Shown here: positions 1,671-15,898 of the stretch, one piece after another | How the letters are laid out: every line of letters starts with the position of its first letter | Numbering within the stretch: position 1 is the first letter of the stretch | Program-made: the position numbers and the translations under genes | The notes under the pieces: model-generated | The model's database searches: none | Told to the model about the DNA's origin: nothing | The model's input: the letters and a program-made list of their open reading frames with translations, nothing else | From: a virus | Reading direction: 5' to 3' (one strand) | DNA: 24,105 bases | Virus record (IMG/VR): IMGVR_UViG_3300005617_000520 | Location: 1-24,105 of that record

Positions 1671-1967
1671 ATGACTGCTTTAAAAAAAGATTTAGATTAT
1701 ACAGATAAAACTAAAATTGCTTTGCTAGAGAAATCAATAGAACACATCAATGAAAGTTTAATTAAACTCGATAGAACCTTAGATCTTAAATTTTCTCTCA
1801 TTGATAAAAGATTCGATTCTATAGATAAAAGATTTGAAGCGATGGATTCTAAAATGGAAAAAGGATTTTCAGAATGTCGCCAATTAAGTTGGGGTCATTT
1901 TCGTTGGATAATGGGCACCGTAATAATTTGTATTTTAGTACCATTAGTGAAAGGATTTACAGGTTAA
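1671..1967 (+). CDS. Coiled-coil, single-TM protein coupled to parA
   Basis: 98 aa from ATG 1671, chosen because GAGGATTGTTT immediately precedes it. Residues about 10-65 form a heptad-like helix with repeated SxIDKRFxxxDxK units (DKRFDSIDKRFEAMDSKMEKGF). They are followed by HFRWIMGTVI and a hydrophobic membrane segment of about 20 residues at the C-terminal end. The stop overlaps the parA start (TAATG), so the two are translationally coupled. A shorter protein on the - strand (7782-7961) has the same layout and shares the IDKRFD and HFxWxxGTVI motifs. The layout recalls XhlA- or DUF1640-like phage membrane proteins. A role in partition is only suggested by the operon. Confidence 0.7.
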   Translation: MTALKKDLDYTDKTKIALLEKSIEHINESLIKLDRTLDLKFSLIDKRFDSIDKRFEAMDSKMEKGFSECRQLSWGHFRWIMGTVIICILVPLVKGFTG

Positions 1968-2605
1968 TGATCATTTCTATACTCAATCAAAAAGGCGGAT
2001 CTGGAAAAACAACGCTTGCCGTCAATCTAGCTCGATATTTCACTCTTCTGAAAGAAAAAACTATTCTAATCGATTCTGACCCCCAAGGATCTGCTCGCGA
2101 TTGGCATACTAATAGTGATGGTGAATTACTCGAAGTTATTGGGCTTGATCGGCCTACAATAGATAAAGATATTAACAAGTTCAAAATGCTTTACGATTGG
2201 ATTATTGTTGATGGTGCTCCTCAGTTATCTAATATGGCCGTTAAAACAGTCATGTGCAGCGATGTAGTCCTTATCCCAGTACAACCCTCCCCTTATGACA
2301 TATGGGCCTCCAACGACATTGTAGAGCTTGTTAAAGCGAGACAAGATATTACAGATGGAAAACTAAAAGCTGCATTTGTGATTAGTAGACAGATTACTAA
2401 TACGAATATTGGTAAAGAAATAAGATCTATTTTAGAACAATATCAATTGCCTATTTTTAAGTCTGGAACTTTTCAGCGTGTTGCTTATGCAACGACAGCT
2501 AATGGAAGTACTATTTTTGATGGCACAGAATTTTCAGGCGACGCATTAGCCGTTAAAGAAATTTATAACATTTCTAAAGAATTAGAGGCGTTCATCCATG
2601 AATAA
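1967..2605 (+). CDS. parA: ParA-family partition ATPase
   Basis: 212 aa, starting MIISILNQKGGSGKTT at the ATG overlapping the preceding stop. It has the deviant Walker A KGGSGKTT (residues 9-16), Walker A' DSDPQGSA (36-43) and Walker B WIIVDGAP (78-85, Asp 82). There is no N-terminal HTH domain, so it is the short ParF/type Ib class, which works with a small DNA-binding partner instead of a large ParB. The next gene encodes such a partner. ParA proteins use ATP-dependent nucleoid binding to distribute low-copy plasmids, and here would stabilise an extrachromosomal form of the element. The longer frame opening at 1874 overlaps the upstream gene and is not used. Confidence 0.93.
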   Translation: MIISILNQKGGSGKTTLAVNLARYFTLLKEKTILIDSDPQGSARDWHTNSDGELLEVIGLDRPTIDKDINKFKMLYDWIIVDGAPQLSNMAVKTVMCSDVVLIPVQPSPYDIWASNDIVELVKARQDITDGKLKAAFVISRQITNTNIGKEIRSILEQYQLPIFKSGTFQRVAYATTANGSTIFDGTEFSGDALAVKEIYNISKELEAFIHE

Positions 2606-2810
2606 AATTAAAGTAAAAAATTCAACAAATACGAAGAAAAAAACCGAATTATTAGATAAAATAAAGAACAATGAATTGACTGTTAAATTCACGATGAACA
2701 TGCCTGTTAATCTTCATCAAGAATTAAAAATATTGGCGGCTAAACAACGAATTAACATGGTAGATATTCTTTTACCGATATTAAATGCATATATACAGAA
2801 AAATGCATAA
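2598..2810 (+). CDS. Ribbon-helix-helix partition partner (ParG-like)
   Basis: 70 aa. A basic, flexible, Lys/Asn/Thr-rich N terminus (residues 1-28) precedes a compact RHH-like domain: strand TVKFTMNMPV, then helix NLHQELKILAAKQR, then helix MVDILLPILNAYI. This matches ParG/CopG-type partition proteins, in which the tail stimulates the ParF ATPase and the RHH dimer binds the centromere and the operon promoter. The start overlaps the parA stop by 8 bp (ATGAATAA), as expected for a parFG-type pair. Confidence 0.8.
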   Translation: MNKIKVKNSTNTKKKTELLDKIKNNELTVKFTMNMPVNLHQELKILAAKQRINMVDILLPILNAYIQKNA

Positions 2811-3024: not shown

Positions 3025-3073
3025 GGAAATATTAAGATATAGATTGTTATTATTATATAAATTAGGTATTAAA

Positions 3074-3533: not shown

Positions 3534-3539
3534 GGTAAA

Positions 3540-3689: not shown

Positions 3690-3966
3690 GGTCGATAATA
3701 TTAAGTTTTCAAGCAAACTTGAGGCTAAATATTATGAACAGCTCAAATTGCGCCAAAAATCTGGTGAGGTGCTGTTTTTCTTAAGACAGGTACCCATGGC
3801 TATACCAGGAAATAAAAAGTACGTGGTAGACTTCCTAGAGTTTCACAGTAATGGTGAAGTGGTGTTCACGGAAGTGAAAGGAATGAGAATTCCCCTAGGT
3901 GAGTTAAAAATATCGTTAGTCGAAGATTTATACCCAATTAAAATTAATGTTGTGAGTAAGGTTTAA
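3652..3966 (+). CDS. DUF1064-type PD-(D/E)XK nuclease-like protein
   Basis: 104 aa. HKFKANPTKVDNIKF followed by SKLEAKYYEQL matches the N-terminal signature of DUF1064 phage proteins. The nuclease core is visible as Glu in SKLEAKYY, Asp in YVVDFLEF (about residue 60) and the E-x-K of FTEVKG. This family is related to Holliday-junction resolvases and other PD-(D/E)XK nucleases and is usually found beside phage replication genes. The C terminus is slightly short for the family. The 3' end overlaps the convergent gene by 4 bp. Confidence 0.8.
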   Translation: MTVYHKFKANPTKVDNIKFSSKLEAKYYEQLKLRQKSGEVLFFLRQVPMAIPGNKKYVVDFLEFHSNGEVVFTEVKGMRIPLGELKISLVEDLYPIKINVVSKV

Positions 3967-4727
3967 TTCCAAATAATCCCTTTACCTTCGCACACACTAC
4001 AAATTGATTTCCAATAAATAGTATTACCAGCTTCACACTCAATACCGTCAATAGTTATTTTTGCATCAACATTTTTTAGCTCTGGTTTATTAAACTTACT
4101 TCCCTCACAAACAGGGCATCGATGTGGCGTTTTTTTTTCTTTGTAGTAAAAACTAGCAATTTCAGCGATTTTATCGACTAGTTCTAATGCAGTCTTTTCT
4201 ATATCTTTAACTCTAGATTCAAACTTTAATATCGTTGCATGAAGATTAGCACCGTCTAATACGATAAGTTTCATTTTTTCTATATCAAGCAATGATTCTA
4301 ATTCATCTACCCTTCGAGATGTCTTGCGGTTTTCGTCGATTTGATAGGTTTTATGTTCTTCTAATTTTATAATTCTTCTTTCTAAATCTAAATTAGCGTC
4401 ATTATAAGCAGTATCAATACATGCTATCGTATCTTGGCGCATTTTGTTTTCGGATTCTAATTTCTCTATTCTCTGTAGCAGCTCCCTCAAAACTTCGTAT
4501 CTAACCAAATTTACTTTTGCTGTTTCTGATTCCTTGATTCTTTCTTCCAAATCCTGAATCTTCTTTACCATGGGTGATACTGGAGTTTCAGTAGCAGGAG
4601 AGAAAAAAGGTATCTGAGATTTACAGTTACAACAATTTTCTATCCTATATCCGCCAATTTTATGACAGGAACAAAGACAAGGATCAGTATTTATTGGATG
4701 GCATCCGCTCATTTTACAATACTCCAT
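3963..4727 (-). CDS. Coiled-coil protein with Cys-rich ends
   Basis: 254 aa. The N-terminal 35 residues hold eight cysteines (C4, C9, C17, C19, C21, C32, C33, C35) plus His, suggesting a zinc-binding module. Residues about 55-195 are a long charged coiled coil (KIQDLEERIKESE, ESLLDIEKMKL). The C terminus carries two CxxCxG knuckles, CPVCEG (204-209) and CSVCEGKG (243-250), like the DnaJ-type zinc finger. No catalytic domain is seen. The start overlaps the end of the upstream gene by 19 bp. Possibly a scaffold or anti-host protein, but the function is unknown. Confidence 0.65.
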   Translation of the reverse strand: MEYCKMSGCHPINTDPCLCSCHKIGGYRIENCCNCKSQIPFFSPATETPVSPMVKKIQDLEERIKESETAKVNLVRYEVLRELLQRIEKLESENKMRQDTIACIDTAYNDANLDLERRIIKLEEHKTYQIDENRKTSRRVDELESLLDIEKMKLIVLDGANLHATILKFESRVKDIEKTALELVDKIAEIASFYYKEKKTPHRCPVCEGSKFNKPELKNVDAKITIDGIECEAGNTIYWKSICSVCEGKGIIWN

Positions 4728-4967: not shown

Positions 4968-5495
4968 TTAATTTTTGTGAACTCTATCATAATCCGGATT
5001 TCCTGGCTCCCAAAACTTTGCGGTTTGCTTTGGCTCTTGAATTTTGTTCGAAGAACGGTTTTTCTCATTAGTATAATTATTAGAATCTTTAGTTAGATGT
5101 AGGACACTATGTCCTAGGTTTTGAGATTTTAAATGCATATTTGTCCTAGGGGGTAGGACATTTTGTCCTAGGTTGTTTAATATATTTCCAGTTAAGTATT
5201 TATACATTTGGCCGTTGTCTATTTTGTTTACTTCAATAATTTTTATATTAATTAATCTGGGAATTCTTCTCCGAATTGTTCGAGATGTGGAACCGATATA
5301 ATTTGCAATTTGATTATGTGATATTTTAATTTCAAATTTTCCAGATTTAGAAAAATTCATATCTATGCAATCGCATAAATAACGAATAATTTCTCTATCA
5401 ACGGAATTTAATTTGTATTTTAGAGATTCTTTTGAATTCAAAAAAATGGATGCTAGAAAAGAAGCTTTATGTTTGATATTATTTGTTTGTTGCAT
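4968..5495 (-). CDS. Winged-HTH replication-initiator-like protein with in-gene repeats
   Basis: 175 aa. Residues about 30-90 form a winged helix-turn-helix: a helix around VDREIIRYLCDCID, then recognition region KISHNQIANYIGSTSRTIRRRIPRL, then the wing KIIEVNKIDNG. Past residue 105 the protein becomes low complexity, with two copies of a NLG(Q/H)(N/S)VL peptide encoded by two 17-bp DNA palindromes. A Ser/Asn-rich stretch follows, then a FWEPGNPDYDRVHKN tail. A DNA-binding N terminus plus repeats inside the gene plus an adjacent AT-rich tract is the arrangement of lambda O, whose origin lies in the O gene. It could instead be a plain regulator that binds its own gene. The ribosome site AGAGG lies within an ACTAC/GTAGT inverted repeat. 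Confidence 0.7.
   Translation of the reverse strand: MQQTNNIKHKASFLASIFLNSKESLKYKLNSVDREIIRYLCDCIDMNFSKSGKFEIKISHNQIANYIGSTSRTIRRRIPRLINIKIIEVNKIDNGQMYKYLTGNILNNLGQNVLPPRTNMHLKSQNLGHSVLHLTKDSNNYTNEKNRSSNKIQEPKQTAKFWEPGNPDYDRVHKN
5100..5170. repeat. In-gene palindromic iterons, TAGGACA-N3-TGTCCTA
   Basis: Two 17-bp palindromes with identical arms: TAGGACACTATGTCCTA (5100-5116) and TAGGACATTTTGTCCTA (5154-5170). A further half site TGTCCTA lies at 5142-5148. All lie inside the initiator-like gene. On the coding-strand downstream side (5059-5098) the DNA is AT-rich. The arms are conserved at synonymous positions and the central 3 nt vary, as expected for protein-binding sites. Likely initiator binding sites / replication origin. 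Confidence 0.7.
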
Positions 5496-5533
5496 TTACT
5501 ACCTCTAATGTAGTTTTACTGCGACATGGATTT

Positions 5534-5563
5534 TGCCCATCGAAGTACCACCTTCTATGGGCA
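5534..5563. other. Strong stem-loop, 12-bp arms
   Basis: TGCCCATCGAAG (5534-5545) pairs with CTTCTATGGGCA (5552-5563) around a 6-nt loop, with a single C/T mismatch. It is not followed by a T-run on either strand, so it is not a standard terminator. Protein-binding palindrome or RNA element. Confidence 0.6.
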
Positions 5564-5659
5564 CACGGATTTTAGCATCACAGTTTTTTTATCTCTATAA
5601 TTATGTAGTTTTGTTTTTTAAATTAATATATTATCCAACCGACATCCTTGTACCGGAAT

Positions 5660-5713
5660 TTAAGCTCCCGCTTTGTACTCATAGTACATCTGCTTCCCAA
5701 AGTGGGGGCTTAA
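5660..5713. other. Long stem-loop, 16-bp stem
   Basis: TTAAGCTCCCGCTTTG (5660-5675) can pair with CAAAGTGGGGGCTTAA (5698-5713) along its entire length, allowing two G-U wobbles in + strand RNA. The 22-nt loop contains GTAC-N5-GTAC, which could form a second small hairpin. There is no T-run after it. It precedes the endolysin gene and could be a structured leader, small RNA or replication structure. Confidence 0.6.
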
Positions 5714-5792
5714 TGACGGAAAAATCCTTTCTTTTCAAATATAAAAACTACGTGTAGTATTATTTGCAATTTATGCTAAAAGGATTTAACGC

Positions 5793-6314
5793 ATGTCTGC
5801 ATTTTCGTTTGCTGTAGATTATATGTTACGTAATGAAGGTGGATTAATAGACAACGAGCACGATACGGGTGGCATAACAAATTTTGGTATATCCTTACGT
5901 TTTTACAAAACTATCTATCCTGATGCAATCCCTGACGATATCCGAAACTTATCATTAGATCAGGCAAAAGAATTTTACCGAAAAATATTCTGGGATGATT
6001 CTCGTTGGAAAGAGATTAATTGCCAGGTAACCGCTAATCTCGTTTTTGACATGCACGTTAACATGGGTATGGCAGCCGCCACGAAGATATTACAGAGAGC
6101 CCTATGCTCGGTAGTGGGTAATATTCATTATTGCCTTGATGACGGTATTTTTGCGGATAATACCCTAGCTATAGTTAATCATATACAAGAAATTGATTTT
6201 CTTGTTATAGCACTTAGAAGTGAAAGAGCGGGGTATTACCGAGAGATCGTTGTTAAAGATCCCTCTCAGAAGATTTTTTTAGACGGATGGCTTAACAGGG
6301 CTTATGGGATGTAA
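5793..6314 (+). CDS. GH108-type endolysin (peptidoglycan hydrolase)
   Basis: 173 aa, matching the family's usual length. The N-terminal FAVDYMLRNEGGLIDNEHDTGG-ITNFGIS stretch (about residues 6-33) is the signature of glycoside hydrolase family 108, with catalytic Glu in NEGG. The C-terminal half (AKEFYRKIFWDD ... LVFDMHVNMG) matches the associated peptidoglycan-binding-3 type region and the FD-x-x-V-N-x-G helix. No signal peptide is seen, so export would need a holin. The AAAGGATT ribosome site precedes the ATG. It stands alone on + between two - strand groups, so it probably has its own promoter. Confidence 0.88.
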   Translation: MSAFSFAVDYMLRNEGGLIDNEHDTGGITNFGISLRFYKTIYPDAIPDDIRNLSLDQAKEFYRKIFWDDSRWKEINCQVTANLVFDMHVNMGMAAATKILQRALCSVVGNIHYCLDDGIFADNTLAIVNHIQEIDFLVIALRSERAGYYREIVVKDPSQKIFLDGWLNRAYGM

Positions 6315-6315
6315 T

Positions 6316-6495
6316 TTAGCCATCTTTTTTATACAAGTCAGCTGCATCAATCATTTCATCAATAAAGAAATTTGCAATGTCTTCACTTTCAAAAAAACCT
6401 TCTTCACGAGCATGTGCAATGACCATTTCTAAGCATGATTCAAAGCCTTCCCAAAACTTAAAGTCGCAAGAACTGCATTCTTTTTCATTATTCAT
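6316..6495 (-). CDS. 59-aa acidic protein with CxxC
   Basis: MNNEKECSSCDFKFWEGFESC... continuing to FIDEMIDAADLYKKDG. C7 and C10 form a CxxC and there is a further C21. The rest is acidic and helical. It overlaps the upstream Lar-like gene by 8 bp and ends 1 bp from the convergent endolysin stop. Last gene of the nine-gene - strand group. Unknown function. Confidence 0.6.
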   Translation of the reverse strand: MNNEKECSSCDFKFWEGFESCLEMVIAHAREEGFFESEDIANFFIDEMIDAADLYKKDG

Positions 6496-6679
6496 CTAAT
6501 TTTCTAAGCCTCAAATTCCATTTTTCAATCGCAATTTCAGGGTGATCATATAAATCAGTTCGACAAAAACAACTTGAGCATTCCACTTTGTACTTTAAAT
6601 ATTCATTAGTTTCTATGCTTGTCGTGCATTCGGCAATATCACCACAAAAAGGGCAGCTTTTTATTACTTTTTTAATCAC
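6488..6679 (-). CDS. Lar-like zinc protein (restriction alleviation family), GTG start
   Basis: 63 aa. KSCPFCGDIAEC, then VECSSCFC, then IAIEKWNLR matches the Lar / zf-Lar pattern: CPFCG near the N terminus, a second CxxC, then A-x-x-x-W-N-x-R. Lar of the Rac prophage alleviates type I restriction, but most family members are untested. The start is GTG at 6679, directly after the upstream stop and preceded by AAGGAA. A second member of the family lies at 7496-7687. Confidence 0.78.
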   Translation of the reverse strand: MIKKVIKSCPFCGDIAECTTSIETNEYLKYKVECSSCFCRTDLYDHPEIAIEKWNLRLRKLDE

Positions 6680-7186
6680 TTATTTTATTTCCTTAATAAT
6701 CCAACAATATTTCAATGAAATTTTTCCTGTTGAATTAATAAGATAAAAATAATTATTTTTTTTATCATTGATCAATTTGCCAATCATAGAATAATAATTT
6801 TTTTTATTTTCTAATAATTCAATACGCTCACTGTCTAAAATTAGAGCAGGTAAAATTACAAATTCAAATTCTTTTTTAACTAATTGTTTTTTTATAGTTG
6901 CAATAATTGCTGGTATACCAGACAAATCTTTTAAATGTTGGCTTATTGATGAATATAAAGCTATATTGATCCAATTTAACGGATGAGTTTCGCGTTCCTT
7001 TTCATCAACAAAATTTTTACACCATCCATAAAAATCATCGATACTCTTATCGTTACCTATCTCAAATTTTAAGCTTCCTTTTCTCATTTCTTTTAAGATT
7101 TGATCTTTAGTATGGCTTCTTCCATTTTGATTTAATAAAGTAAAAACTTCTGAAAAATTCAATAGTTTATTTTCTTTAGTTGTCAT
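6680..7186 (-). CDS. 168-aa hypothetical protein
   Basis: Begins MTTKENKLLNFSEVFTLLNQNGRSHTKDQILKEMRKG, which looks like a small helical DNA-binding-type start (NFSEVFTLL resembles the beginning of excisionase or MerR-like helices, though not clearly). The remainder is mixed, with LKDLSGIPAIIATIKKQLV and a lysine/asparagine-rich C-terminal half. No family is claimed. It shares one base with the upstream gene's end. Confidence 0.6.
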   Translation of the reverse strand: MTTKENKLLNFSEVFTLLNQNGRSHTKDQILKEMRKGSLKFEIGNDKSIDDFYGWCKNFVDEKERETHPLNWINIALYSSISQHLKDLSGIPAIIATIKKQLVKKEFEFVILPALILDSERIELLENKKNYYSMIGKLINDKKNNYFYLINSTGKISLKYCWIIKEIK

Positions 7187-7509
7187 TAGTTCATTTTACC
7201 AGTATTTGATTTTTTATTGTCTTCATATATTTTTTCATGGGATGTTATAAATTCGTTAATTTCTTTTTTAAATTTTTCATTTGTTTCTAGAAACACTTCA
7301 TGTCCTAAATACGACATTAAAATAATTCTTTTAATTTGACACATTAAATGATCAATTCTTGCTATCAATCCAATGTAACTTTCATTGCTTGTATTCATAG
7401 CTAAATGATAATCTGCATCTAAATTGCAAAATTGTACAGCTCCTAATGTTTCTATATTTACTAGTGCTTTCGTTTCTATTTCTTTTTTTATCATGTTAAT
7501 ATGTTCCAT
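7186..7509 (-). CDS. 107-aa hypothetical protein
   Basis: Mostly helical (MEHINMIKKEIETKALVNIETLGAVQ..., LIARIDHLMCQIKRIILMSYLGHEVF), with a lysine-rich tail. An alternative ATG lies five codons in, at 7494. The start at 7509 overlaps the upstream Lar-like gene by 14 bp. Function unknown. Confidence 0.6.
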   Translation of the reverse strand: MEHINMIKKEIETKALVNIETLGAVQFCNLDADYHLAMNTSNESYIGLIARIDHLMCQIKRIILMSYLGHEVFLETNEKFKKEINEFITSHEKIYEDNKKSNTGKMN

Positions 7510-7687
7510 TAATACGTGTATTCCATAATGAAATCGTTTTTTCTTTAGTTAGTTCCATATGAGAAGAGCTTCCACATTTTTCGCATTCAACATAGTAACC
7601 ATGTCTATTGTCACCCCATTCTCCGACACCGATAGTACATTTATCTGATCCACAAAATGGACATAATTTTAGTTCTTTTTCTAACAT
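7496..7687 (-). CDS. Lar-like zinc protein (restriction alleviation family)
   Basis: 63 aa. LKLCPFCGSDKC, then VECEKCGSSS, then TISLWNTRING: the same CPFCG / CxxCG / W-N-x-R layout as the gene at 6488-6679, and closer to the family consensus, including the aromatic HGYYVECEKCG block. Predicted to bind one zinc ion. It may counter host restriction, by analogy with Lar of the Rac prophage, but this is family knowledge and not shown here. Confidence 0.82.
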   Translation of the reverse strand: MLEKELKLCPFCGSDKCTIGVGEWGDNRHGYYVECEKCGSSSHMELTKEKTISLWNTRINGTY

Positions 7688-7785
7688 GATTCTTCTTCCT
7701 TAGGTTCATAATAATCAGATCGTCTTTCATAACATTTATCGCAGATGTCATCAAGTTCAAAGCATTCTCGACAGCATAGGTTCAT
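7681..7785 (-). CDS. 34-aa Cys-rich microprotein
   Basis: MNLCCRECFELDDICDKCYERRSDYYEPKEEESC: C4-C5-x2-C8 and C15-x2-C18 form a potential zinc site, followed by an acidic tail. It overlaps both neighbours (ATGA with the upstream gene, 7 bp with the Lar-like gene), which supports real translation. No family is recognised. Confidence 0.5.
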   Translation of the reverse strand: MNLCCRECFELDDICDKCYERRSDYYEPKEEESC

Positions 7786-7961
7786 ATTAATTTAGCCAAA
7801 TGTAATATAATTCCGCCAAATAGCGTTATGACGGTTCCTAATACCCAATAGAAATGCGCGTCTATTTTCGACTCAATTTTATCGAATCTTTTATCTATAT
7901 TTTCTGCTATTTTTTCTAGCAGTCTTATGCGTACTTCGTGGTCTACTATTGTTTCGTTCAT
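7782..7961 (-). CDS. Short coiled-coil, single-TM protein
   Basis: 59 aa. N-terminal helix NETIVDHEVRIRLLEKIAENIDKRFDKIESKIDAHF, then YWVLGTVITLFGGIILHLAKLI as the membrane segment. It shares the IDKRFD motif and the HFxWxxGTVI junction with the protein encoded just upstream of parA (1671-1967), so they are probably paralogues. The layout resembles XhlA-like phage membrane proteins, which can take part in lysis. The stop overlaps the next start (ATGA). Confidence 0.7.
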   Translation of the reverse strand: MNETIVDHEVRIRLLEKIAENIDKRFDKIESKIDAHFYWVLGTVITLFGGIILHLAKLI

Positions 7962-7973
7962 TATTTTTTCCCT

Positions 7974-8069
7974 TTATACATAAATTAGTACACCTATTAA
8001 TAAGCCTGCTATAAATAATAAGCTCCAAACTATAGTGAATGTGACAAAAATTTCTATAAGATTTTGCAT
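7974..8069 (-). CDS. 31-aa single-pass membrane microprotein
   Basis: MQNLIEIFVTFTIVWSLLFIAGLLIGVLIYV is almost wholly one transmembrane helix. A clear AAGGAC ribosome site precedes the ATG, within the end of the upstream gene. Like the 32-aa gene at 178-276, it is a minimal membrane protein of unknown role. Confidence 0.55.
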   Translation of the reverse strand: MQNLIEIFVTFTIVWSLLFIAGLLIGVLIYV

Positions 8070-8143
8070 ATTTTTTTGTCCTTGCAAGTTAAACACTTCC
8101 TCGCATGCGATAAAGCACTACATTTAGGACATCTATAATACAT
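8054..8143 (-). CDS. 29-aa zinc-ribbon microprotein
   Basis: MYYRCPKCSALSHARKCLTCKDKKICKIL: CPKC (5-8) and CLTC (17-20) make a complete four-Cys zinc knuckle. A strong AGGAG site stands 8 bp before the ATG, and a promoter lies upstream. It is the first gene of the - strand group. Very short, so function is unknown, but the ribosome site and motif support it. Confidence 0.55.
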   Translation of the reverse strand: MYYRCPKCSALSHARKCLTCKDKKICKIL

Positions 8144-8206
8144 TTTTGTTTTCTCCTAGTTTAATTTCATGTATAATCAAAATTGTTTTTGTATTTAGTG
8201 TTTACA

Positions 8207-8235
8207 AAGATACAACTAATTAGAAAAAGTGTCAA
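8207..8235 (-). promoter_or_regulatory. Sigma70-type promoter for the nine-gene - strand group
   Basis: Read on the - strand: TTGACA (8235-8230, perfect -35), a 17-bp spacer, then TATCTT (8212-8207, 4 of 6 to the -10). It would drive all genes from 8143 down to 6316. A perfect -35 at ideal spacing makes this one of the best promoters in the window. Confidence 0.6.
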
Positions 8236-8337
8236 CAAATTTATATCTTATTTTCCCAATGTGCATTAAAACTTCGAAAATCGTTAAAATATGGTATGGT
8301 ATAGTGTATAAAATGAACTAAGGGTTCGGAAATTGGT

Positions 8338-8343
8338 TATAAT
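8338..8343 (+). promoter_or_regulatory. Possible -10 box for the late (packaging) genes
   Basis: A perfect TATAAT lies 19 bp before the small terminase ATG. No good -35 stands at 16-18 bp, so it might depend on an activator or late regulator. Just upstream is a short tandem ATGGT repeat around 8291-8301. The remainder of the 8144-8362 gap is AT-rich, with no gene. Confidence 0.35.
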
Positions 8344-8362
8344 TTACTCATAAAAGGCGAAT

Positions 8363-8728
8363 ATGGCTAAATATAAATGCACTGATGGAGGCTATCAGCC
8401 GAATGAACACCGCCCTACTATTAAAACAAAATCAAAGGTTGAGGGCTTTGTATGTGCTGGATTTAATCAACAACAGATAGCAACTTACTTAGATATCAGC
8501 GTTGATACTCTATATAAACACTATAAAAAAGAACTCACCGAAACTCATATGAATAAAACTATGACATTATCCAATGCTGTTTTTAAAGATGCCCTTAGTG
8601 GAGATAAACAACAAAGAGAATTTTGGCTTAGAACACAGGGAAAATGGGCAAACGCTAAGCCACGCGAAGAAAAAGAACGTGACGAAAAGATATTAACATT
8701 ACTTGAACAATTGGCACAAAAGCTATGA
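8363..8728 (+). CDS. Small terminase subunit (TerS-like)
   Basis: 121 aa. Residues about 20-55 (KTKSKVEGFVCAGFNQQQIATYLDISVDTLYKHYKKEL) form a helix-turn-helix with the Q-Q-I-A-x-Y-L-x-I-S-x-x-T-L signature of phage small terminases. Residues 60-121 are helical (NAVFKDALSGDKQQREFWLRTQ), like the oligomerisation region of TerS, and end in a helical tail rich in Glu, Lys and Leu. TerS recognises the packaging site and delivers DNA to the large subunit encoded 22 bp past the next small gene. First gene of the late operon. Confidence 0.8.
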   Translation: MAKYKCTDGGYQPNEHRPTIKTKSKVEGFVCAGFNQQQIATYLDISVDTLYKHYKKELTETHMNKTMTLSNAVFKDALSGDKQQREFWLRTQGKWANAKPREEKERDEKILTLLEQLAQKL

Positions 8729-8874
8729 CAGAACAAGAAAAAGAAGCCTATCTTGCCAAAAAAGGTTGGCAGAAAGTCAACATGATTCACTATACTCATA
8801 AAGATTGTGGATTTAGATGCACACTTGATATGGCAGTGTTAGTTCAGAAAAAAAATGATAATGAAGATAAATAA
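8725..8874 (+). CDS. 49-aa hypothetical protein between terS and terL
   Basis: Starts at the ATGA overlapping the terS stop: MTEQEKEAYLAKKGWQKVNMIHYTHKDCGFRC-TLDMAVLVQKK... It has C28 and C32 and a KKGW-like start common among small phage proteins between terminase genes. No function known. Translationally coupled to terS. Confidence 0.6.
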   Translation: MTEQEKEAYLAKKGWQKVNMIHYTHKDCGFRCTLDMAVLVQKKNDNEDK

Positions 8875-8896
8875 CGTTCTACATGGAACATAACGA

Positions 8897-10414
8897 ATGG
8901 ATTCTAGTCTAAAAGAAAAACTATTAGACCTCACCAAATTCGCTCCAGCTTTTTTTACGATTAGGACAAAAGCCGGAACTCCGACTAAGTTCACGCTCAA
9001 TAAAGCACAGCTATTTGTCCATGATAGACTCCAAACACAACTGAGAGAAACCGGAAAAGTTAGAGCTATTTTATTGAAAGGCCGACAACAGGGCATGTCT
9101 ACACTGATACAGGCACGATATTTACATAGGGTTATAACAACACGAGGAAAGAAAGCGTTTATTCTTACGCATGAAGCGGAAGCTACCAAAAATCTATTTG
9201 AGATGACAAAGAGGTATTATGACAACTTGCCAGAAGGATTGTGCCCCAAAGCGGATAAATCAAGCGCTAAAGAATTGCGTTTTAGTCATTTTGATTCTGG
9301 TTATAGTGTGGGAACTGCTGGCAATAAAGGCACTGGAAGAAGTCAAACAATACAACTCTTTCATGGCAGCGAGTGCGCATTCTGGGAACATACAGACGAT
9401 CATGCTACCGGCGTCTTGCAAGCTATATCGAGTGAAGCTGAAACCGAAATAATTCTTGAATCTACAGCTAATGGTATTGGAAATTTCTTTCATAAGATGT
9501 GGTGTAGTGCATCAAGTGGATCAAGTGATTATCAAGCGATATTTGTGCCTTGGTACTGGCAAGATGAGTATAAAGCGAGAACACATAACTTTAAACTCAC
9601 AGATGAAGAAGAGGAAATTTACGCTTTATACTATCAAGACGGTTTAACAATCGATCATATGGAATGGCGCAGAGTTAAGATATCAAGTCTTTCAGGAGAC
9701 GAAGAAGCTGGGCTTGAGCTATTCAAACAAGAATACCCAATGACGGCTGAAGAAGCCTTCAGAAACCCGATAGACAATGTTTTTATTAATGCTAAGCATG
9801 TAATGAAAGCAAGAAAGACTATAGTTGAAAGCGAAACTAATTTAATCATTGGTGTTGACCCAGCTATAGGAAATAATGATAGAACTTGTATTATTCGGAG
9901 AAAAGGCCGTCTTGCGTACAAAATGGAAAGTTTCCGAAATCATAATACTATGGAAATATGTGGTCGATTGGTTCAGATCATTAAGACCGAACAACCTGCT
10001 AAAATTTATGTTGATTGTATTGGTATTGGAGCTGGCATTGTTGATCGTATGCGTGAACTTGGATATGAACAGGTTGAAGGCGTTAACGTTGCGAGAATGC
10101 CAAATCTAAAAGATAAGTTTAGAAATCTTCGTGCGGAGCTTTATTGGGAGTTGAGGGAATGGCTTTGCCAGGAAATGCCTGTGCAAATCCCAGACAGTGA
10201 CGAGCTTCACGGTGATTTATGTGGGATGGGTTTTAAATATACGTCAAATGGATTGTTACAGATAGAGGGTAAGGATCAAATGAAGGCTCGTGGTATGCCT
10301 TCACCTGATACCGCAGACGCACTGATGCTAACATTTTATGCAGGAACATACGAATCGTCATTAAATTTAACACCTCCAAGAATGCCTTTAGCACGTCCAG
10401 GATTCTTTGTATAG
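8897..10414 (+). CDS. terL: Large terminase subunit
   Basis: 505 aa, about the usual length. ATPase domain: variant Walker A LKGRQQGMST (residues 60-69), Walker B region TIQLFHGSECAFWE (151-164) and coupling motif ILESTANG (186-193). Nuclease domain: GVDPAIGNNDRT (Asp 321), YVDCIGIGAG (Asp 373) and PDTADALMLTF (Asp 471, Asp 474), the RNase H-like metal-binding acidic set. The enzyme cuts concatemeric DNA and pumps it into the procapsid through the portal. The ribosome site is weak (GGAACATAACG). Confidence 0.95.
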   Translation: MDSSLKEKLLDLTKFAPAFFTIRTKAGTPTKFTLNKAQLFVHDRLQTQLRETGKVRAILLKGRQQGMSTLIQARYLHRVITTRGKKAFILTHEAEATKNLFEMTKRYYDNLPEGLCPKADKSSAKELRFSHFDSGYSVGTAGNKGTGRSQTIQLFHGSECAFWEHTDDHATGVLQAISSEAETEIILESTANGIGNFFHKMWCSASSGSSDYQAIFVPWYWQDEYKARTHNFKLTDEEEEIYALYYQDGLTIDHMEWRRVKISSLSGDEEAGLELFKQEYPMTAEEAFRNPIDNVFINAKHVMKARKTIVESETNLIIGVDPAIGNNDRTCIIRRKGRLAYKMESFRNHNTMEICGRLVQIIKTEQPAKIYVDCIGIGAGIVDRMRELGYEQVEGVNVARMPNLKDKFRNLRAELYWELREWLCQEMPVQIPDSDELHGDLCGMGFKYTSNGLLQIEGKDQMKARGMPSPDTADALMLTFYAGTYESSLNLTPPRMPLARPGFFV

Positions 10415-10477
10415 TAAATTGTTATTTTTTTATGCATAATGGCACGATGCTATTATAACGAAAAGGATTTTTCCGAT

Positions 10478-12619
10478 ATGGCTGAAAAAGATTCGGTTAA
10501 AGCTCAAAAAATGCGTGAAGATGTTCGACGATGGGATGATGCAAATAAGAGGAATAATGCGCATTACCATGAAATGACTAATTTCATTATGGGTCAGCAA
10601 TGGGAAGATCAAGAAGCAAAGCTATTTGAAGATTATAAGAAAATGCCATTGACGGCTAATAAGCTTGCTCCGATGATGAACCATATGCTTGGTGAACAAA
10701 GGCAAAATACGCCAAATTTACAGATAGAACCCGCAGAAGATGTCGAAGAACAAGCAGCGGAAGTCAGAGAAGCATTAATCAAAGAAATCACATTCAGTTC
10801 TGATGCAACGGCCATATATCAAACAGCCTTCGAGCAAGCAGTCATAGGTGGATTTGGAGCTTATTGTATTGTACCAGAGTATGATGGTAACGACTCTTTT
10901 GATCAATTACCTCGTCTTATGGCATTTAAAGATCCAACAAAGTGTTTCTGGGATTTAGGAGCTGAACACTATTGTAAAGTCGATGGGATGTATTCTGGAT
11001 TTCGTACCACAATGTCACGTAGAAAATTTAGATCTATATGGGGAAAAGAAGTTGAACGCGATATAGGGGATAGTTCAACAGACGTAACGGATACAGACAA
11101 CATCACTACTACATTCAGTGATGAACAGAGTATAACTGTTATAAATATGTTTGAGAGACAATCTAAAAAATCAGTTCTTTATCAATTATCGAATGGCGAA
11201 AGTATTTCTAAAGCAGATCTTAAAAAACTAGAAAAAGTAAAAATGGGAAATACCAAGTTTTATATTTTTGATGGCGAACCTGTTACCGTGGTCAAAGAAA
11301 GAGATATTACAGATGATACAATTATTTGGTCAAAATGGGGTGGAGATTATAGATTAGAAGAAACGACCTTCCCTACGAAAATTATGCTCCCTATGATTTA
11401 TGTAGATCAAAAGTCATATTGGGACAAAAATGGAAAACAAGTCAATCGATCATTTTTCAAAGATGCTAAAGACACACAACGATTCATCAACTATTTGCGT
11501 ACACAAATTGCATATCTCATTAAAGTTAGTAGATACGATCAATTCCTAGTTTCCAAGAAAAACGTAGCGGGTGCTGATACGCAAGCCATGTGGAGAGATC
11601 CTTCCACGCAGCAAGGCGGTTTATGGTATGACGAATCACCCAATGGTAATGTACCAATTCAATTAAGACCGCCTGAATTATCAGCATCACTCGGAATGCA
11701 ATACGAATCAGCAACACAAGATCTACAAATGACAACTGGTATGTACGATACAATGATGGGGAATCAAGGAAATGAAATTTCAGGAGATGCCGTTGATTCG
11801 CGTATTAAAGCGGGTAGCCTTAATACTTTTTTACCTCGCTCTAGTCTCGATCGCGCTATCACCTGTGGTGGCGCTATTATTAATGAAATGATTCCAAATC
11901 TATTTGATACGCAACGAAAGATGAAACTTAACCTTAAGAGTCGAGGAAATGCTAGCGTTGAACTAAATAAGCCAATGGATGACTATGGAATGCAAGTTCA
12001 AAACGATATGACAAAGGGTAAGTTCAAGATACGACTTATTGCGGGTCAAAGTTATGAAGGACAGAAAACAGAGGATCGTGAGAGCATGGATTTAGTCTTG
12101 AGCAAAAATCCTGGAATGTTTAGTTTGATTGCAGATCTATATGTTGAATCACTGCCGATGAGTAATAACATTGAAATGCGTAATAGATTACGTACTGTTG
12201 TACCGCCAGAGATTATTCAAGCTGGAAAAACAGGCGAGCCTATACCGCCTAAAACACCTCAGCAAGATCCTATGGTAGTGCTCAAACAGCAAGAATTACA
12301 AATGAAAATGCAAAATAGCATGATGGAACATCAAGCGAAAGCCCATGAATTACAATTACAAGAACAAAAAATGATGATGGAATCTCATCAAGCTGGCGTT
12401 GATTTCACAAAAGAAATACAAAAAATTCAAATACAACAGAAGGAAATTGAAGCACAAATAGTTGATCAGAAAATGAGATTTGAAGCTGAAATGGCAAACA
12501 TAATGCATCAAGCACATATGAATCATACGCAAAATGTTGTGAAGATTTTAACTCATCAACCTAATCATTTTAAAGTAAAGGAAGGAAAATCGAATGGAAG
12601 TGAAAGTGCAGAGCAATAA
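10478..12619 (+). CDS. Portal protein (P22-like)
   Basis: 713 aa from ATG 10478, chosen because AAAAGGATTT lies before it; an in-frame ATG at 10439 has no ribosome site. P22-like features: a helical N terminus ending in MGQQWED-QEAKLFEDYKKMPLTANKLAPMMNHMLGEQRQN (about residues 35-75 of this start), a central wing/stem region, and a long Gln/Met-rich C-terminal helix (about 610-690, QQDPMVVLKQQELQMKMQN), like the P22 barrel. Twelve copies form the DNA channel at one capsid vertex. P22 portal is 725 aa, so the size fits. The end overlaps the next gene by 26 bp. Confidence 0.88.
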   Translation: MAEKDSVKAQKMREDVRRWDDANKRNNAHYHEMTNFIMGQQWEDQEAKLFEDYKKMPLTANKLAPMMNHMLGEQRQNTPNLQIEPAEDVEEQAAEVREALIKEITFSSDATAIYQTAFEQAVIGGFGAYCIVPEYDGNDSFDQLPRLMAFKDPTKCFWDLGAEHYCKVDGMYSGFRTTMSRRKFRSIWGKEVERDIGDSSTDVTDTDNITTTFSDEQSITVINMFERQSKKSVLYQLSNGESISKADLKKLEKVKMGNTKFYIFDGEPVTVVKERDITDDTIIWSKWGGDYRLEETTFPTKIMLPMIYVDQKSYWDKNGKQVNRSFFKDAKDTQRFINYLRTQIAYLIKVSRYDQFLVSKKNVAGADTQAMWRDPSTQQGGLWYDESPNGNVPIQLRPPELSASLGMQYESATQDLQMTTGMYDTMMGNQGNEISGDAVDSRIKAGSLNTFLPRSSLDRAITCGGAIINEMIPNLFDTQRKMKLNLKSRGNASVELNKPMDDYGMQVQNDMTKGKFKIRLIAGQSYEGQKTEDRESMDLVLSKNPGMFSLIADLYVESLPMSNNIEMRNRLRTVVPPEIIQAGKTGEPIPPKTPQQDPMVVLKQQELQMKMQNSMMEHQAKAHELQLQEQKMMMESHQAGVDFTKEIQKIQIQQKEIEAQIVDQKMRFEAEMANIMHQAHMNHTQNVVKILTHQPNHFKVKEGKSNGSESAEQ

Positions 12620-13466
12620 AGTTCATGTCAATAAAATAGATGATATTTTAGTTGGTGTTACACCAAAGACGCCAGAGTTTGCAGAAGAACAAAAGGCAAT
12701 CGATTCAGAGGAACCCGAACAAGAATCTCAAGAATTAGAAGCGACAGAACCTGAACAAGAAGAGGTGAAAGAACCAGAAAAAGAAAAAGAATCTAAAAAA
12801 GAAATTGAGGAAAAGGAATCTAAAGAAGAAGATCATCTAGATGAATATGGTAACGAAATAGAAAAACCACGTCTTTATACAGATGAAGATGTTCAAAGAA
12901 TGATTAAAGAGAGATTACAACGTGGTCAATCTCAAATACAGCCTGAAATTCAGCAAGCTGCTGATAACTTCCAAGCTGACCCTAACAATCCAGAAGATTG
13001 GGAAGTACAGCTAGAAAAGTTCATAGAAAAAACAACTCATAAACTAGAGAAAAAAAAACAAACTAAAGCATGGCAAGAGCAAGAGCTTCAGAAGCAGCAA
13101 GATTTTGAAGTTAAGTTTACGCATGGCATGAATAAGTATCGAGACTTTAAGGAAACAGTCGGACAAATGCCCATTACTGATTCAATCATGATGGCAACGA
13201 GAGATATGAATGATCCAGCTGCTTTTTTATATGCCGCATCAAAATTGCATCCAGAAGAAGTTAAAAGAATTGCAAGTCTGACAGATGCTTTCGCTCAAGC
13301 TAGAGAAATTGGAAAGCTTGATGAAAGAATGAGAAAGACGCGTGCAATTTCAAAAGCACCGGCGCCTTTAGCTCAAAACAAAGGCGATATGTCACCTAAA
13401 TATGTACCGAAACAGAGTATAGATCAAAAGATTGCAAGTCATGCTAAGGCTAAGAATAGACGATGA
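12594..13466 (+). CDS. Scaffolding protein
   Basis: 290 aa. Residues about 25-85 are extremely acidic (Glu/Lys/Ser-rich), the middle carries HLDEYGNEIEKPRLYTDEDVQRMI followed by a long coiled coil (KFIEKTTHKLEKKKQT...), and the C terminus is basic and helical (SIDQKIASHAKAKNRR). This is the usual layout of phage scaffolds, whose basic C-terminal hairpin binds coat protein. The gene lies between portal and coat, as in P22 (gene 8, 303 aa). Ribosome site AAGGAAGG. Confidence 0.78.
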   Translation: MEVKVQSNKVHVNKIDDILVGVTPKTPEFAEEQKAIDSEEPEQESQELEATEPEQEEVKEPEKEKESKKEIEEKESKEEDHLDEYGNEIEKPRLYTDEDVQRMIKERLQRGQSQIQPEIQQAADNFQADPNNPEDWEVQLEKFIEKTTHKLEKKKQTKAWQEQELQKQQDFEVKFTHGMNKYRDFKETVGQMPITDSIMMATRDMNDPAAFLYAASKLHPEEVKRIASLTDAFAQAREIGKLDERMRKTRAISKAPAPLAQNKGDMSPKYVPKQSIDQKIASHAKAKNRR

Positions 13467-13714
13467 AAATTTTAATAGAATATAATACCCACGATGATAT
13501 ATATATTATTAAATTCATATATGCAGGAATAGTATTTTACGCACCGTTAGAACAGCAAGGTGATATGAGTTTATCTGCTGAGTTGCTAGAAAAACCAATT
13601 GCTGATTTAATGAATTTATGTATTCAAGAACTTAAAGATATTAAGCAACAGAAATTGGCAAAACATCAAGCTGAAGAAGGTAGCATAAAATTTTATGGAG
13701 TTGATTATTCATGA
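13463..13714 (+). CDS. 83-aa hypothetical protein
   Basis: Starts in an ATGA overlap with the scaffold stop. It is beta-then-helix (MKILIEYNTHDDIYIIKFIYAGIVFYAPL..., LMNLCIQELKDIKQQKLAKHQAEEGS). The C-terminal helix is amphipathic. Position among head-assembly genes suggests a virion or assembly role, unproven. Confidence 0.65.
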   Translation: MKILIEYNTHDDIYIIKFIYAGIVFYAPLEQQGDMSLSAELLEKPIADLMNLCIQELKDIKQQKLAKHQAEEGSIKFYGVDYS

Positions 13715-13908
13715 AAAAACACAATCGTTACTCTGAAGCTCGCGGCCCCGAAAATCTTGGAGACAAGATGGATAAGGATATGATAAAGAAATATGGAAAG
13801 GATAAAGAAATTCCACCTTTCATCAACGCCAAGGAGGGCAGAGATGAATATGGTAAGGAACAATCTATTTCTTACGGAAACTCTGGAGAAGGCTATGACC
13901 AGGAATAA
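13711..13908 (+). CDS. 65-aa hydrophilic hypothetical protein
   Basis: ATGA overlap with the previous gene. Highly charged and low in hydrophobic residues (MKKHNRYSEARGPENLGDKMDKDMIKKYGKDKEIPPF...), so probably disordered or nucleic-acid associated. The SEARGPENLGDKM start and GKEQ-x-S-x-G tail have no family I recognise. Confidence 0.6.
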   Translation: MKKHNRYSEARGPENLGDKMDKDMIKKYGKDKEIPPFINAKEGRDEYGKEQSISYGNSGEGYDQE

Positions 13909-14089
13909 AAATGATTTAGCCTATACTGAGTTACGATCTCGTCCTGCTAGCTCTGTAATGCAGTCTAAGGCGGGAGTTTCATCGAGTGATAGTAAAGCAG
14001 TACAAGATCATTTGGACGAACAAGGTCGGATCGCTGACAGCGACCATGGACGATTTTATTTAGAGAATGCAACGGCTACACAGTTTTAA
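13895..14089 (+). CDS. 64-aa hydrophilic hypothetical protein
   Basis: ATG 13895 is preceded by GGAGAAGG, which decides this start over the earlier in-frame ATG at 13793. The protein (MTRNKNDLAYTELRSRPASSVMQS..., DHGRFYLENATATQF) is polar and short, and overlaps the previous gene by 14 bp. Part of a run of four tiny genes between scaffold and the initiator cassette. Confidence 0.6.
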   Translation: MTRNKNDLAYTELRSRPASSVMQSKAGVSSSDSKAVQDHLDEQGRIADSDHGRFYLENATATQF

Positions 14090-14098
14090 GGAGCTAAT

Positions 14099-14260
14099 AT
14101 GCCAATACCAGGCGATAATGGAAACCCCAGAGCAGAGCGAGATGCTCAAAATAAGCGTATTACAATTGAAGCAGAGCGCGGCGCTTTGGTTCAAAAAGAA
14201 GTCAACTTTAATCCTCCAGCCCCTCCCGAAAAGAATGTATTTGGAGTAATGCATAAATGA
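14099..14260 (+). CDS. 53-aa hypothetical protein
   Basis: A strong AAGGAGCTAAT ribosome site precedes the ATG. MPIPGDNGNPRAERDAQNKR... ending NFNPPAPPEKNVFGVMHK; proline-rich C terminus, no transmembrane segment. The next gene starts in the ATGA at its end and contains a similar WNPPAQNEF motif, so the two may be diverged duplicates. Confidence 0.6.
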   Translation: MPIPGDNGNPRAERDAQNKRITIEAERGALVQKEVNFNPPAPPEKNVFGVMHK

Positions 14261-14424
14261 CCCCAAAAAACAGCAATACAGACGCGTCATACGAAGATAT
14301 GGTTAAGGGTAAGCCTGAGATATGGGAACAGAGCGAAGTCGCCACCTGGAACCCTCCAGCTCAAAATGAATTTGAGAAGGCGAAATGGAATTCTAATGGC
14401 TATGATCAGATAGGTGCGAAATAG
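14257..14424 (+). CDS. 55-aa hypothetical protein
   Basis: ATGA-coupled to the gene before. MTPKNSNTDASYEDMVKGKPEIWEQ, then WNPPAQNEFEKAKWNSNGYDQIGAK. The NPPAxxE element is shared with the preceding 53-aa protein (NPPAPPE). It is the last gene before the inserted initiator cassette. Function unknown. Confidence 0.6.
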   Translation: MTPKNSNTDASYEDMVKGKPEIWEQSEVATWNPPAQNEFEKAKWNSNGYDQIGAK

Positions 14425-14570
14425 TCAGGATGAAATAATCGTAATCAGGTGATTTCCCAGATCTGGTAAATCTGGGAGGTCTCGTTTTGTACAGAAAATT
14501 TAATGTCAGGCAAATTATATCGTGTTGTACCGATAAATCAACAGATTGATTTGCCTGCAAGGAAAATATC
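14425..14570. promoter_or_regulatory. Intergenic control region with two inverted repeats
   Basis: TCCCAGAT (14455-14462) and ATCTGGGA (14470-14477) form an 8-bp stem with a 7-nt loop, followed by CGTTTTG, which is too short a T-run to call a terminator with confidence. CAGGCAAAT (14507-14515) and ATTTGCCTG (14549-14557) are perfect 9-bp inverted arms 33 nt apart, the second ending 1 bp before the AAGGAAA ribosome site of the next gene. Possible attenuator plus operator pair. Confidence 0.45.
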
Positions 14571-15188
14571 ATGTCATTTGAGCTCAATTTAGCCATCATC
14601 CCCAATCGTATTTATTATCTGGAAGGCGTTCAATTATCTTACATTAAAATTTATGTCCATATTTTTAATCTTTGGCATAGCAATAAGCCTTGTTTTATTG
14701 GGATTAAAGAATTTATGCAAAGAACTGGTTTAAAGAAAACAGCAGTTTATGACGCTCTTAACTTTTTTGAAAAAATGGGAGAAATAAAAAGGGTCACAAA
14801 AGGAAATAAAAGATACATTTTGCAACCTGTTAAAGCAATTGAAACTGAAATTGAGGATGTAGATGAGCTACCGGAATCGAGATCAAATAATAATCATGTT
14901 TCCGTTGTAGCGGAAAAGGTTTCCGCGATAGCGGAAAATCTTTCCGCCAACGCGGAACATAATAATAAATATAATAATAAATATAATAAAAGCTTTTGCG
15001 CTTCGCCTGAAAAGACAAAAAACGAACAGCAAAAGCGGGAGAATGAGAGAAAGCACAGTTTTGCAGAAAAGAAGCCTCCACTGGCAAGTGTTGAAAATCA
15101 AACTACATCCTATGATCCCAATAGAGCAGGGTCTGCTCTAAAAGCAAGCATTCACCTAGAGGATTATATTAAACGGCAGCATCATTGA
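14571..15188 (+). CDS. HTH replication-initiator-like protein with in-gene iterons
   Basis: 205 aa. Residues about 20-85 form a winged helix: a helix IKIYVHIFNLWHSN, then IGIKEFMQRTGLKKTAVYDALNFFEKMG as the helix-turn-helix, then a wing KRVTKGNKRYIL. Residues 110-130 are three 7-residue repeats (VSVVAEK, VSAIAEN, LSANAEH), encoded by three 21-bp palindromic DNA repeats. NNKYNNKYNK, encoded by an AT-only tract, follows. The C terminus is charged and probably disordered up to a short amphipathic end. A DNA-binding head, in-gene iterons and adjacent AT-rich DNA resemble lambda O and its origin. It is not closely similar to the initiator-like protein at 4968-5495. Ribosome site AAGGAAAA. Confidence 0.72.
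   Translation: MSFELNLAIIPNRIYYLEGVQLSYIKIYVHIFNLWHSNKPCFIGIKEFMQRTGLKKTAVYDALNFFEKMGEIKRVTKGNKRYILQPVKAIETEIEDVDELPESRSNNNHVSVVAEKVSAIAENLSANAEHNNKYNNKYNKSFCASPEKTKNEQQKRENERKHSFAEKKPPLASVENQTTSYDPNRAGSALKASIHLEDYIKRQHH
14898..14960. repeat. Three 21-bp in-gene palindromic iterons
   Basis: Units at 14898-14918, 14919-14939 and 14940-14960, each of the form TTTCCG-N5-GCGGAA with variable centres (TTGTA, CGATA, CCAAC). The arms are palindromic and fully conserved; the centre varies. The period is seven codons, so the reading frame is kept. Confidence 0.85.
14961..14990. repeat. AT-only tandem repeat next to the iterons (possible unwinding element)
   Basis: AATAATAAATAT is repeated twice (14961-14972, 14973-14984) and followed by AATAAA. 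It contains no G or C over 30 bp, in the position where replication origins such as lambda ori have their AT-rich melting region. Confidence 0.7.
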
Positions 15189-15886
15189 TGGGATTTGAGA
15201 TAGTCGATTGCGGATTGCAAAAGTTCTATCGATTCATAGAAACCGCCTATTCCAGTATTACACCTATGGCATAGTAAACCTCTAATCTTTTTGGTGACGT
15301 GACAATGATCTATAGCAAGATTCTTTGTTCCTTGTTTTGAATGTGGCGAGACCATTGATTCGGGTTTATTGCATATTTTACATAAATAATTTTGACTTAT
15401 TAGCATATTTTTATAATCTTTTATTGAGACTTTTATATAATTTCCTGGTTTTCCAAGATGGATATAGTTTCTAACTTGTTTATATCCTATAGGTCTGTTA
15501 TCTCGTGCCTTTTCATATCTAATTGAATTACAATATCTGCATTGTGACCAGTTTCTATTTTTTACTTTGTAAACTTCATGTTTTTTTAATTCGCCGTGAA
15601 TATTACAAATTTTAACAATTCCTTCAGACATTTTTTTCTTTTCTGGTAATTCTGTGGATTTATGACGAGACATTCTTACACGATGCATTATACAGAGACT
15701 TGATCTTTGTTTTTCATCTCTGGGATTATTACAACTTTCGACTCTACATGTTCCACCATATCTTTTTCTATTCGGTTTATCATAACTACCATAAACTTTC
15801 ATACGCCAATTATGTGCTTGGCAGATATTTCCTGACCGAACTAAATTAATACAGTCATTTATTGTACATTTATCGCCTTTTGCCAT
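15182..15886 (-). CDS. Endonuclease VII-like HNH nuclease
   Basis: 234 aa. The C-terminal domain (about 160-230) has zinc ligands CKIC (169-172) and CHRC (206-209) and the catalytic block LAIDHCHVTKKIRGLLC (190-206), ending in AIDYL: the recombination endonuclease VII family pattern. The N terminus has two zinc modules of the C-x4-C...C-x2-H form, CTINDC/CQAH (7-25) and CRVESC/CIMH (47-68). Endonuclease VII resolves branched DNA before packaging, but free-standing HNH genes of this type are also mobile. It runs opposite to all neighbours, converges on the initiator gene with a 7-bp overlap, and has its own AGGAG site. Confidence 0.85.
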   Translation of the reverse strand: MAKGDKCTINDCINLVRSGNICQAHNWRMKVYGSYDKPNRKRYGGTCRVESCNNPRDEKQRSSLCIMHRVRMSRHKSTELPEKKKMSEGIVKICNIHGELKKHEVYKVKNRNWSQCRYCNSIRYEKARDNRPIGYKQVRNYIHLGKPGNYIKVSIKDYKNMLISQNYLCKICNKPESMVSPHSKQGTKNLAIDHCHVTKKIRGLLCHRCNTGIGGFYESIELLQSAIDYLKSHQ

Positions 15887-15898
15887 TAGTATCTCCTC

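Follow-up and report, generated by a model that had tools for sequence, protein, structure and literature searches.

Can one small phage hold two replication initiators, each carrying an origin of its own? The question is raised by IMG/VR virus record IMGVR_UViG_3300005617_000520, which we analysed as one window of 24,105 bases (the complete virus record, without end repeats). An earlier note on this DNA had described two helix-turn-helix (HTH) genes in a P22-like element, each with a private palindrome family, as cognate initiator-iteron modules. Both genes, here called gene A and gene B, are present at the places claimed. On comparison with related contigs (referred to by handles such as L002 or G027), we consider it likely that both encode initiators of the lambda O type with in-gene origins, gene A being the resident and gene B an inserted second module. 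The features concerned are as follows.

4968..5495, minus strand: gene A, winged-helix initiator-like protein of 175 amino acids (aa), whose C-terminal tail reads KFWEPGNPDYDRV; it occupies the zone in which relatives have their initiator
5100..5170, no strand: iterons A within gene A, two full palindromes TAGGACA-N3-TGTCCTA (5100-5116 and 5154-5170) and one half-site (5142-5148)
5060..5095, no strand: AT-rich stretch right after iterons A, 17% GC over 36 nucleotides (nt)
14571..15188, plus strand: gene B, predicted winged-helix O-like initiator of 205 aa, without the GPGHP-type tail motif
14899..14958, no strand: iterons B within gene B, three palindromes TTTCCGC-N4-GCGGAAA at a 21-nt pitch
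14956..14991, no strand: AT-rich stretch ending iterons B, 3% GC over 36 nt (the gene's minimum), encoding NNKYNNKYNK; a candidate unwinding element
14409..15178, no strand: insertion holding all of gene B except its last 10 nt, between aligned flanks
15182..15886, minus strand: endonuclease VII (EndoVII)-type gene, tail to tail with gene B

The in-gene palindrome families scored 71.7 in gene A and 85.7 in gene B, and neither value was reached by any of 1000 dinucleotide or 1000 synonymous-codon shuffles; the repeats can therefore be put down neither to composition nor to a repeated peptide. The three tandem iterons B carry 0-1 mismatch each, and their palindrome recurs in poorer form with 2 mismatches at 10470 and with 3 at 14995, the latter place being inside gene B. 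Palindrome A was found nowhere else in the window with up to 3 mismatches allowed. With no copy of comparable quality elsewhere in the window, each family is indeed private to its gene.

Initial in-gene repeat scores were swamped by AT-rich genes, one of them omitting gene A, and were replaced by an information-weighted score. The scan covered 1022 open reading frames (ORFs) of 100-420 aa from 31 contigs, and the 24 above the score threshold were shuffled 150 times each. Eighteen, including genes A and B, were reached by no shuffle: 11 are winged-helix initiator genes (two in the window and nine from as many other contigs), another two run antisense across such arrays, one is an array in G003 and four are seemingly unrelated. 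The G003 (L106) array, at 12094-12435, is a strong inverted-repeat array of the GGGTACT type outside an initiator gene; by eye, it adjoins a helicase-like gene. Direct-repeat iterons are missed by the information-weighted score and were given a second score, whose list contains many one-frame amino-acid repeats and does not contain gene B.

Genes of the same design recur among relatives. Scans of viral contigs gave 3 loci by portal, 80 by coat (kept of 275) and 71 by TerL, some contigs being shared, and O-like profiles were run on 34 chosen records at E<=0.05. Matches to phrog_678 were obtained in 16 of the 34 records, to phrog_270 in 21 and to phrog_186 in 14; two separate places were matched only in the window and G028. 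A profile match alone is weak, because 13 or 14 of 14 control genomes match as well. G020 has no match to these three profiles yet does contain an iteron gene. Gene B matches phrog_186, phrog_270, phrog_678 and phrog_345 at 4e-8 to 2e-7 (phrog_186 4.2e-8; phrog_678 1.4e-7). The common layout is a winged helix, iterons from nt ~300-485 and a variable C-terminus, and after the palindromes the 36-nt GC minimum falls within the gene's lowest 2.2% in 10 of 15 palindrome genes. Sixteen placed relatives have their initiator 3.0-8.7 kb upstream of TerL, a list to which the second genes of G027 and G028 do not belong. Gene A, at -3.9 kb relative to TerL, adjoins the endolysin gene. This place is comparable to that in G009 and G013, whose initiators lie directly upstream of the endolysin match; unlike in these two, gene A is transcribed opposite to TerL. 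Gene B lies at +5.7 kb. Relatives in which any such gene was found usually have one per phage.

That genes of this type contain origins is most strongly indicated by their enrichment in DnaA boxes, a sign that does not extend to genes A and B. Perfect boxes occur in 12 of 33 iteron-type initiator genes, for which shuffles gave a mean of 0.26 and a maximum of 2; most of these boxes directly precede the iterons or lie among them. Of 434 other ORFs, 1 has such a box. Contigs with a mapped initiator have 9 boxes in 15.9 kb of initiator gene versus 11 in the other 611 kb. Because of the ratio of 12/33 to 1/434, the initiator-type genes of the relatives very probably hold both initiator and origin. 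The proposed identity of initiator gene and origin is thus supported by way of the relatives (profiles, layout and DnaA boxes), genes A and B themselves being without boxes. The only perfect boxes in the window are at the place where the earlier note had seen a third, origin-like site.

1571..1593, no strand: two perfect inverted DnaA boxes TTATCCACA (starts 1571 and 1585), upstream of the ParA gene

Two perfect boxes compare with 0.35 expected, and 4 of 100 shuffles had two or more, so that the pair is suggestive of more than chance, not decisive. A relaxed pattern is not enriched in the window (4 seen versus 3.9 expected), and nothing beyond the boxes speaks for an origin-like site at 1571. 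Comparable close pairs of perfect boxes were also seen in G005 (28204/28216), G016 (6650/6698), G022 (20524/20572) and G031 (6973/7067).

Does each protein recognise its own repeats? For gene A the comparison comes from L002, whose TerL is 94-95% identical to that of the window. L002 has a different initiator at gene A's place, with homologous DNA on either side and a nearly identical tail (...KQTAKFWEPGNPDYDRVHKN); winged helix and iterons (GTACATA type in L002) differ jointly, and this joint change is, judged from the alignments, the swap expected of a modular initiator-origin. The L002 counterpart matches phrog_270 at 1.6e-9 and is also similar to phrog_678.

Relatives of gene B were obtained only by an alignment-based scan; scanning viral contigs with the single protein gave no match, nor did tblastn against annotated phages and plasmids, and its relative L171 likewise has none in annotated phages. 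The family comprises 14 other distinct members, three with the GPGHP-type tail (L171, G024 and L243) and others with a long C-terminal part. In 10 of the 14, TerL, TerS or portal was in view or mapped, and in all ten the gene is upstream of it. As a separate observation, L171 has a match to the int-alpA small RNA (RF02996) above the gathering score at 18152-18221. Within the family, members with more similar recognition regions also have more similar iterons (r=0.61, p=0.003; orientation-free Mantel test on the 9 of 15 members with clear palindromes, the sites of L229 being set by a pattern chosen after viewing them). With 8 members the orientation-free test gave r=0.63, p=0.009. A run with fixed arm orientation, seeded with gene B's between-site inversion, gave r=0.68, p=0.0008 when the whole domain was compared and r=0.53, p=0.0097 when only the recognition region was. 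The sequence preceding this region correlates too (r=0.28, p=0.014; 8-member run), and shared ancestry therefore contributes. The member nearest to gene B is L229 by recognition region and L239 by iteron, followed by L230 and L229; the iterons of L229 and gene B have TCCG and GCGGA elements in common. The term cognate is thus backed by covariation in the gene B family, and for gene A only by the joint winged helix and iteron swap in L002.

The flanks of gene B point to insertion. Window 14355-14408 aligns with L028 3091-3144 (80%) and window 15179-16098 with L028 3173-4091 (67.5%); the space between these flanks is 28 bp in L028 and 770 bp in the window. The empty site in L028 supports the reading of gene B as an extra, inserted copy, and the earlier note's alternative of an inserted cassette is supported for gene B. 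The neighbouring EndoVII-type gene (PF02945, 2e-18), which lies among head genes as do free-standing endonucleases of this type, is present in L028 without gene B. EndoVII-like genes were found at 12 of 84 loci, 11 of the 12 between scaffold and coat, an interval that is a cargo region in many relatives; a separate endonuclease scan gave 9 loci. Gene B may have been mobilised by the EndoVII-type enzyme.

The same junction is occupied by small ORFs of unknown kind in L162 and L019 and by longer cargo in L016. Gene B is absent from L028, L162 and L009; that it is ancestral and was lost in these three is less likely. L003 matches the window up to 14409 and continues with an 83-aa ORF and a truncated initiator-like ORF at the contig end, the first 44 codons of which are 45% identical to the G017 initiator. 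By eye, the 83-aa protein is HTH-like (the two ORFs span L003 8917-9314, the truncated one being O-like). No initiator-like ORF was seen in L003 between DUF1064 and TerL, the contig beginning inside ParA. A bolder reading, which we think unlikely, is that gene B is a minimal mobile replicon (~0.75 kb) moving between phages into a fixed slot next to a homing-type endonuclease and serving as a second, orthogonal active origin; were that so, the L003 junction ORF would be a further insertion of such kind.

In the mechanism that we envisage, the N-terminal winged helix would bind its own iterons, as family covariation suggests for gene B and the L002 swap for gene A. The AT-rich stretch beside the iterons would then open, and the C-terminal tail or a partner would recruit the helicase. 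The resident initiator would be gene A, which occupies the canonical zone beside the endolysin, and gene B would be an independently acquired initiator-origin of other specificity, inserted in the scaffold-coat cargo hotspot next to the EndoVII-type gene. AlphaFold models of both proteins have a winged helix followed by a low-confidence stretch that the iterons encode.

A tail motif recurs across otherwise divergent initiators. The pattern [FYW]x(0-2)[PD]x[HN]Px[WYF][ED], composed after inspecting several tails, was matched by 9 of the 7156 distinct ORFs in the contig pool, and all nine are winged-helix initiators that have the motif among their final 70 residues. Compared over the first 110 residues, the nine form four groups that are mutually unmatched at E<=1e-3. 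The tail is a candidate partner-binding peptide; searches with it gave nothing relevant in solved structures and one chance-level match in phages.

Several results weigh against the proposed reading. Neither gene contains a DnaA box, the only perfect boxes of the window starting at 1571 and 1585. Gene A matches initiator profiles weakly (phrog_428 1.3e-3, phrog_678 8.5e-3), and its top Pfam match is a Crp-type HTH slightly below the cut-off. Its iterons amount to 2.5 copies at uneven pitch, and 11% of its windows are as low in GC as its AT-rich stretch; the corresponding stretch is likewise weak in L002, G013, G021 and G027. Two scans of viral contigs found L002 as its only relative, and annotated phages and plasmids gave none. 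Gene B is without the GPGHP-type tail motif, its own tail has no match elsewhere in the contig pool, and no promoter-like site was seen on its strand between a terminator-like hairpin and the gene start. The AlphaFold models are weak (predicted local distance difference test, pLDDT, 52 and 59), and fold searches with them returned winged helices only, none at an E-value below 0.001. No match to any of the three O-like profiles was found in 12 of the 34 records, so initiators of this type need not serve all of the group. Finally, a search limited to the DnaB_C profile found no DnaB-type helicase in the window; the record is probably a fragment, because 14 related records with end overlaps span 35.1-39.9 kb.

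Some of these points bear on other explanations of the pair. Gene B could be a non-initiating passenger (an autoregulator, a decoy or a decaying relic) that binds its iterons and cannot load a helicase. The tail motif that it lacks is present in family members L171, G024 and L243, no promoter-like site was seen before it, and its presence varies among close relatives. Against this stand an intact 205-aa frame, three well-phased iterons with the gene's lowest GC at their end, and the absence of the tail from other initiators of the group, such as G001 and G005; we take the passenger for a serious possibility, though not a likely one. That both genes are transcription regulators only, with in-gene operators, would accord with winged-helix folds like those of many regulators and with the Crp-type HTH likeness of gene A. 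The position of the repeats, mid-gene and behind the domain, argues otherwise, as do the AT-rich stretches, the DnaA boxes of the homologues and the O-like profiles, and we find a purely regulatory role quite improbable.

Phage P1 has a ParA partition ATPase, and a division of labour on its pattern might also apply here. Gene A, with ParA and the DnaA-box site, would then serve the plasmid prophage and gene B lytic growth, or the reverse. Separate prophage and lytic replicons are described for P1 in PMC9948254; a ParA and an Arc-like gene in the window make such a split plausible, and gene B does lie among head genes. A ParA profile match was obtained in only 2 of the 34 records, however (the window and G015; tblastn adds L003), iteron initiators occur without ParA, and a terminator-like hairpin precedes gene B, so that this division seems unlikely. 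The pair could finally be an artefact of a contig chimaeric between two phages, the record being a virus-collection contig whose read coverage is not visible. This is very improbable: L028 matches both flanks of gene B in the order seen in the window, L003 matches the left one as well, and L003 too has the start of an initiator-like ORF at the gene B junction. Two modules, gene A resident and gene B inserted, remain the reading that we prefer.

How does such an arrangement compare with known systems? The lambda origin lies in mid-O gene with iterons and an AT-rich region (PMC7466680), and in the O protein a linker joins the N-terminal part, which binds DNA, to the C-terminal part, which binds P (PMC6022878). 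The window genes share the N-terminal DNA-binding domain, the mid-gene iterons and a predicted linker with this plan; the AT-rich region is clear in gene B and weak in gene A, and the C-terminal part would be the interaction part. Unlike lambda, the window belongs to a short-tailed phage with two such genes of different specificity, and 12 of 33 genes homologous or similar to them carry DnaA boxes. A partition ATPase is common to P1 and the window. P1 likewise has two replicons in one phage (oriR for the prophage and RepL-oriL for lytic growth), with oriL postulated inside repL near DnaA sites; mutating those sites had little effect and the AT-rich region was important (PMC9948254). In the window, by contrast, both candidate origins are in-gene, both genes are winged-helix and O-like, and the modules are known by sequence alone. 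Gene B matches the PHROG O-like/DnaD-like families (phrog_270, 678, 186 and 345) and the L002 counterpart of gene A matches 270 and 678; the window proteins A and B are shorter and the profile coverage is partial. Initiators of Rep3 iteron plasmids also combine a winged helix with iterons, and similar genes of relatives have DnaA boxes. The gene A match to Rep3 WH1 is not significant (15.1 bits against a gathering score of 22.4; E 0.03), gene B is not listed, and the window iterons, unlike theirs, are in-gene.

A second case is probably provided by G027, and the window is hence not unique. The first initiator of G027 is at the usual place and bears weaker palindromes (2 of 1000 shuffles of each kind reach its score). 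A second winged-helix gene, about +13 kb relative to TerL, contains the direct repeat CAACCGTGCA three times, in two frames, which 0 of 300 shuffles of each kind matched; O-like profiles match this gene and not the usual-place one. In a homologue of this second gene in G028 (30% over 74 aa), no clear repeats are seen. Three direct repeats do lie within the gene of the first G028 initiator. Titles and abstract openings among the matches listed in the open literature gave no description of two O-type modules in one phage. The earlier note's statement that dual modules are not a described arrangement is nevertheless too strong in view of the two P1 replicons (PMC9948254) and of G027.

If both origins fire, one small phage would use two origins of different specificity, which would bear on how phages escape iteron incompatibility and on the split between plasmid and lytic replication outside P1. 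The relatives, whose iterons covary with the recognition region, form a natural set for deriving a winged-helix recognition code, and the portable C-terminal peptide is a candidate helicase-recruiting tag.

The remaining features of the window are listed below.

1967..2605, plus strand: ParA-like partition ATPase, start set at the ATG preceding the profile match
2598..2810, plus strand: small Arc-like protein adjoining ParA (phrog_582, 4e-5), a possible ParB partner
3963..4727, minus strand: coiled-coil protein, weakly Q-antiterminator-like (phrog_127, 1e-5); it shares the strand of gene A and lies downstream of it
8363: TerS, P22-like head-gene set
8897: TerL, P22-like head-gene set
10439: portal, P22-like head-gene set, profile match
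12594: scaffold, P22-like head-gene set, profile match
~16061: coat, P22-like head-gene set, profile match

The description as P22-like is borne out by the coat, portal, scaffold and head-closure profiles, and the top named coat match is annotated 'P22 coat protein' at 28% identity. Plasmids gave no coat match; one GTDB contig did, from a metagenome-assembled genome labelled Alphaproteobacteria, which is too weak for naming a host. The coiled-coil protein has a cysteine-rich C-terminal part; homologues were matched at 12 of 84 loci, many of which belong to the cargo region between scaffold and coat.

Rfam gave no match anywhere in the window. Between gene A and the endolysin gene lies a hairpin-rich intergenic stretch (5500-5745; L002 4485-4738), of which plus-strand 5630-5745 folds better than shuffles (z -3.4; L002 -4.2). 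By eye, both sides of its stems are changed between the window and L002, for example from GCCCAT/ATGGGC to GCCTAT/ATAGGC. In L009, the TerL frame (2175-4496, 773 aa) has by eye an apparent intein-like insertion of ~270 aa after GRQQGC.

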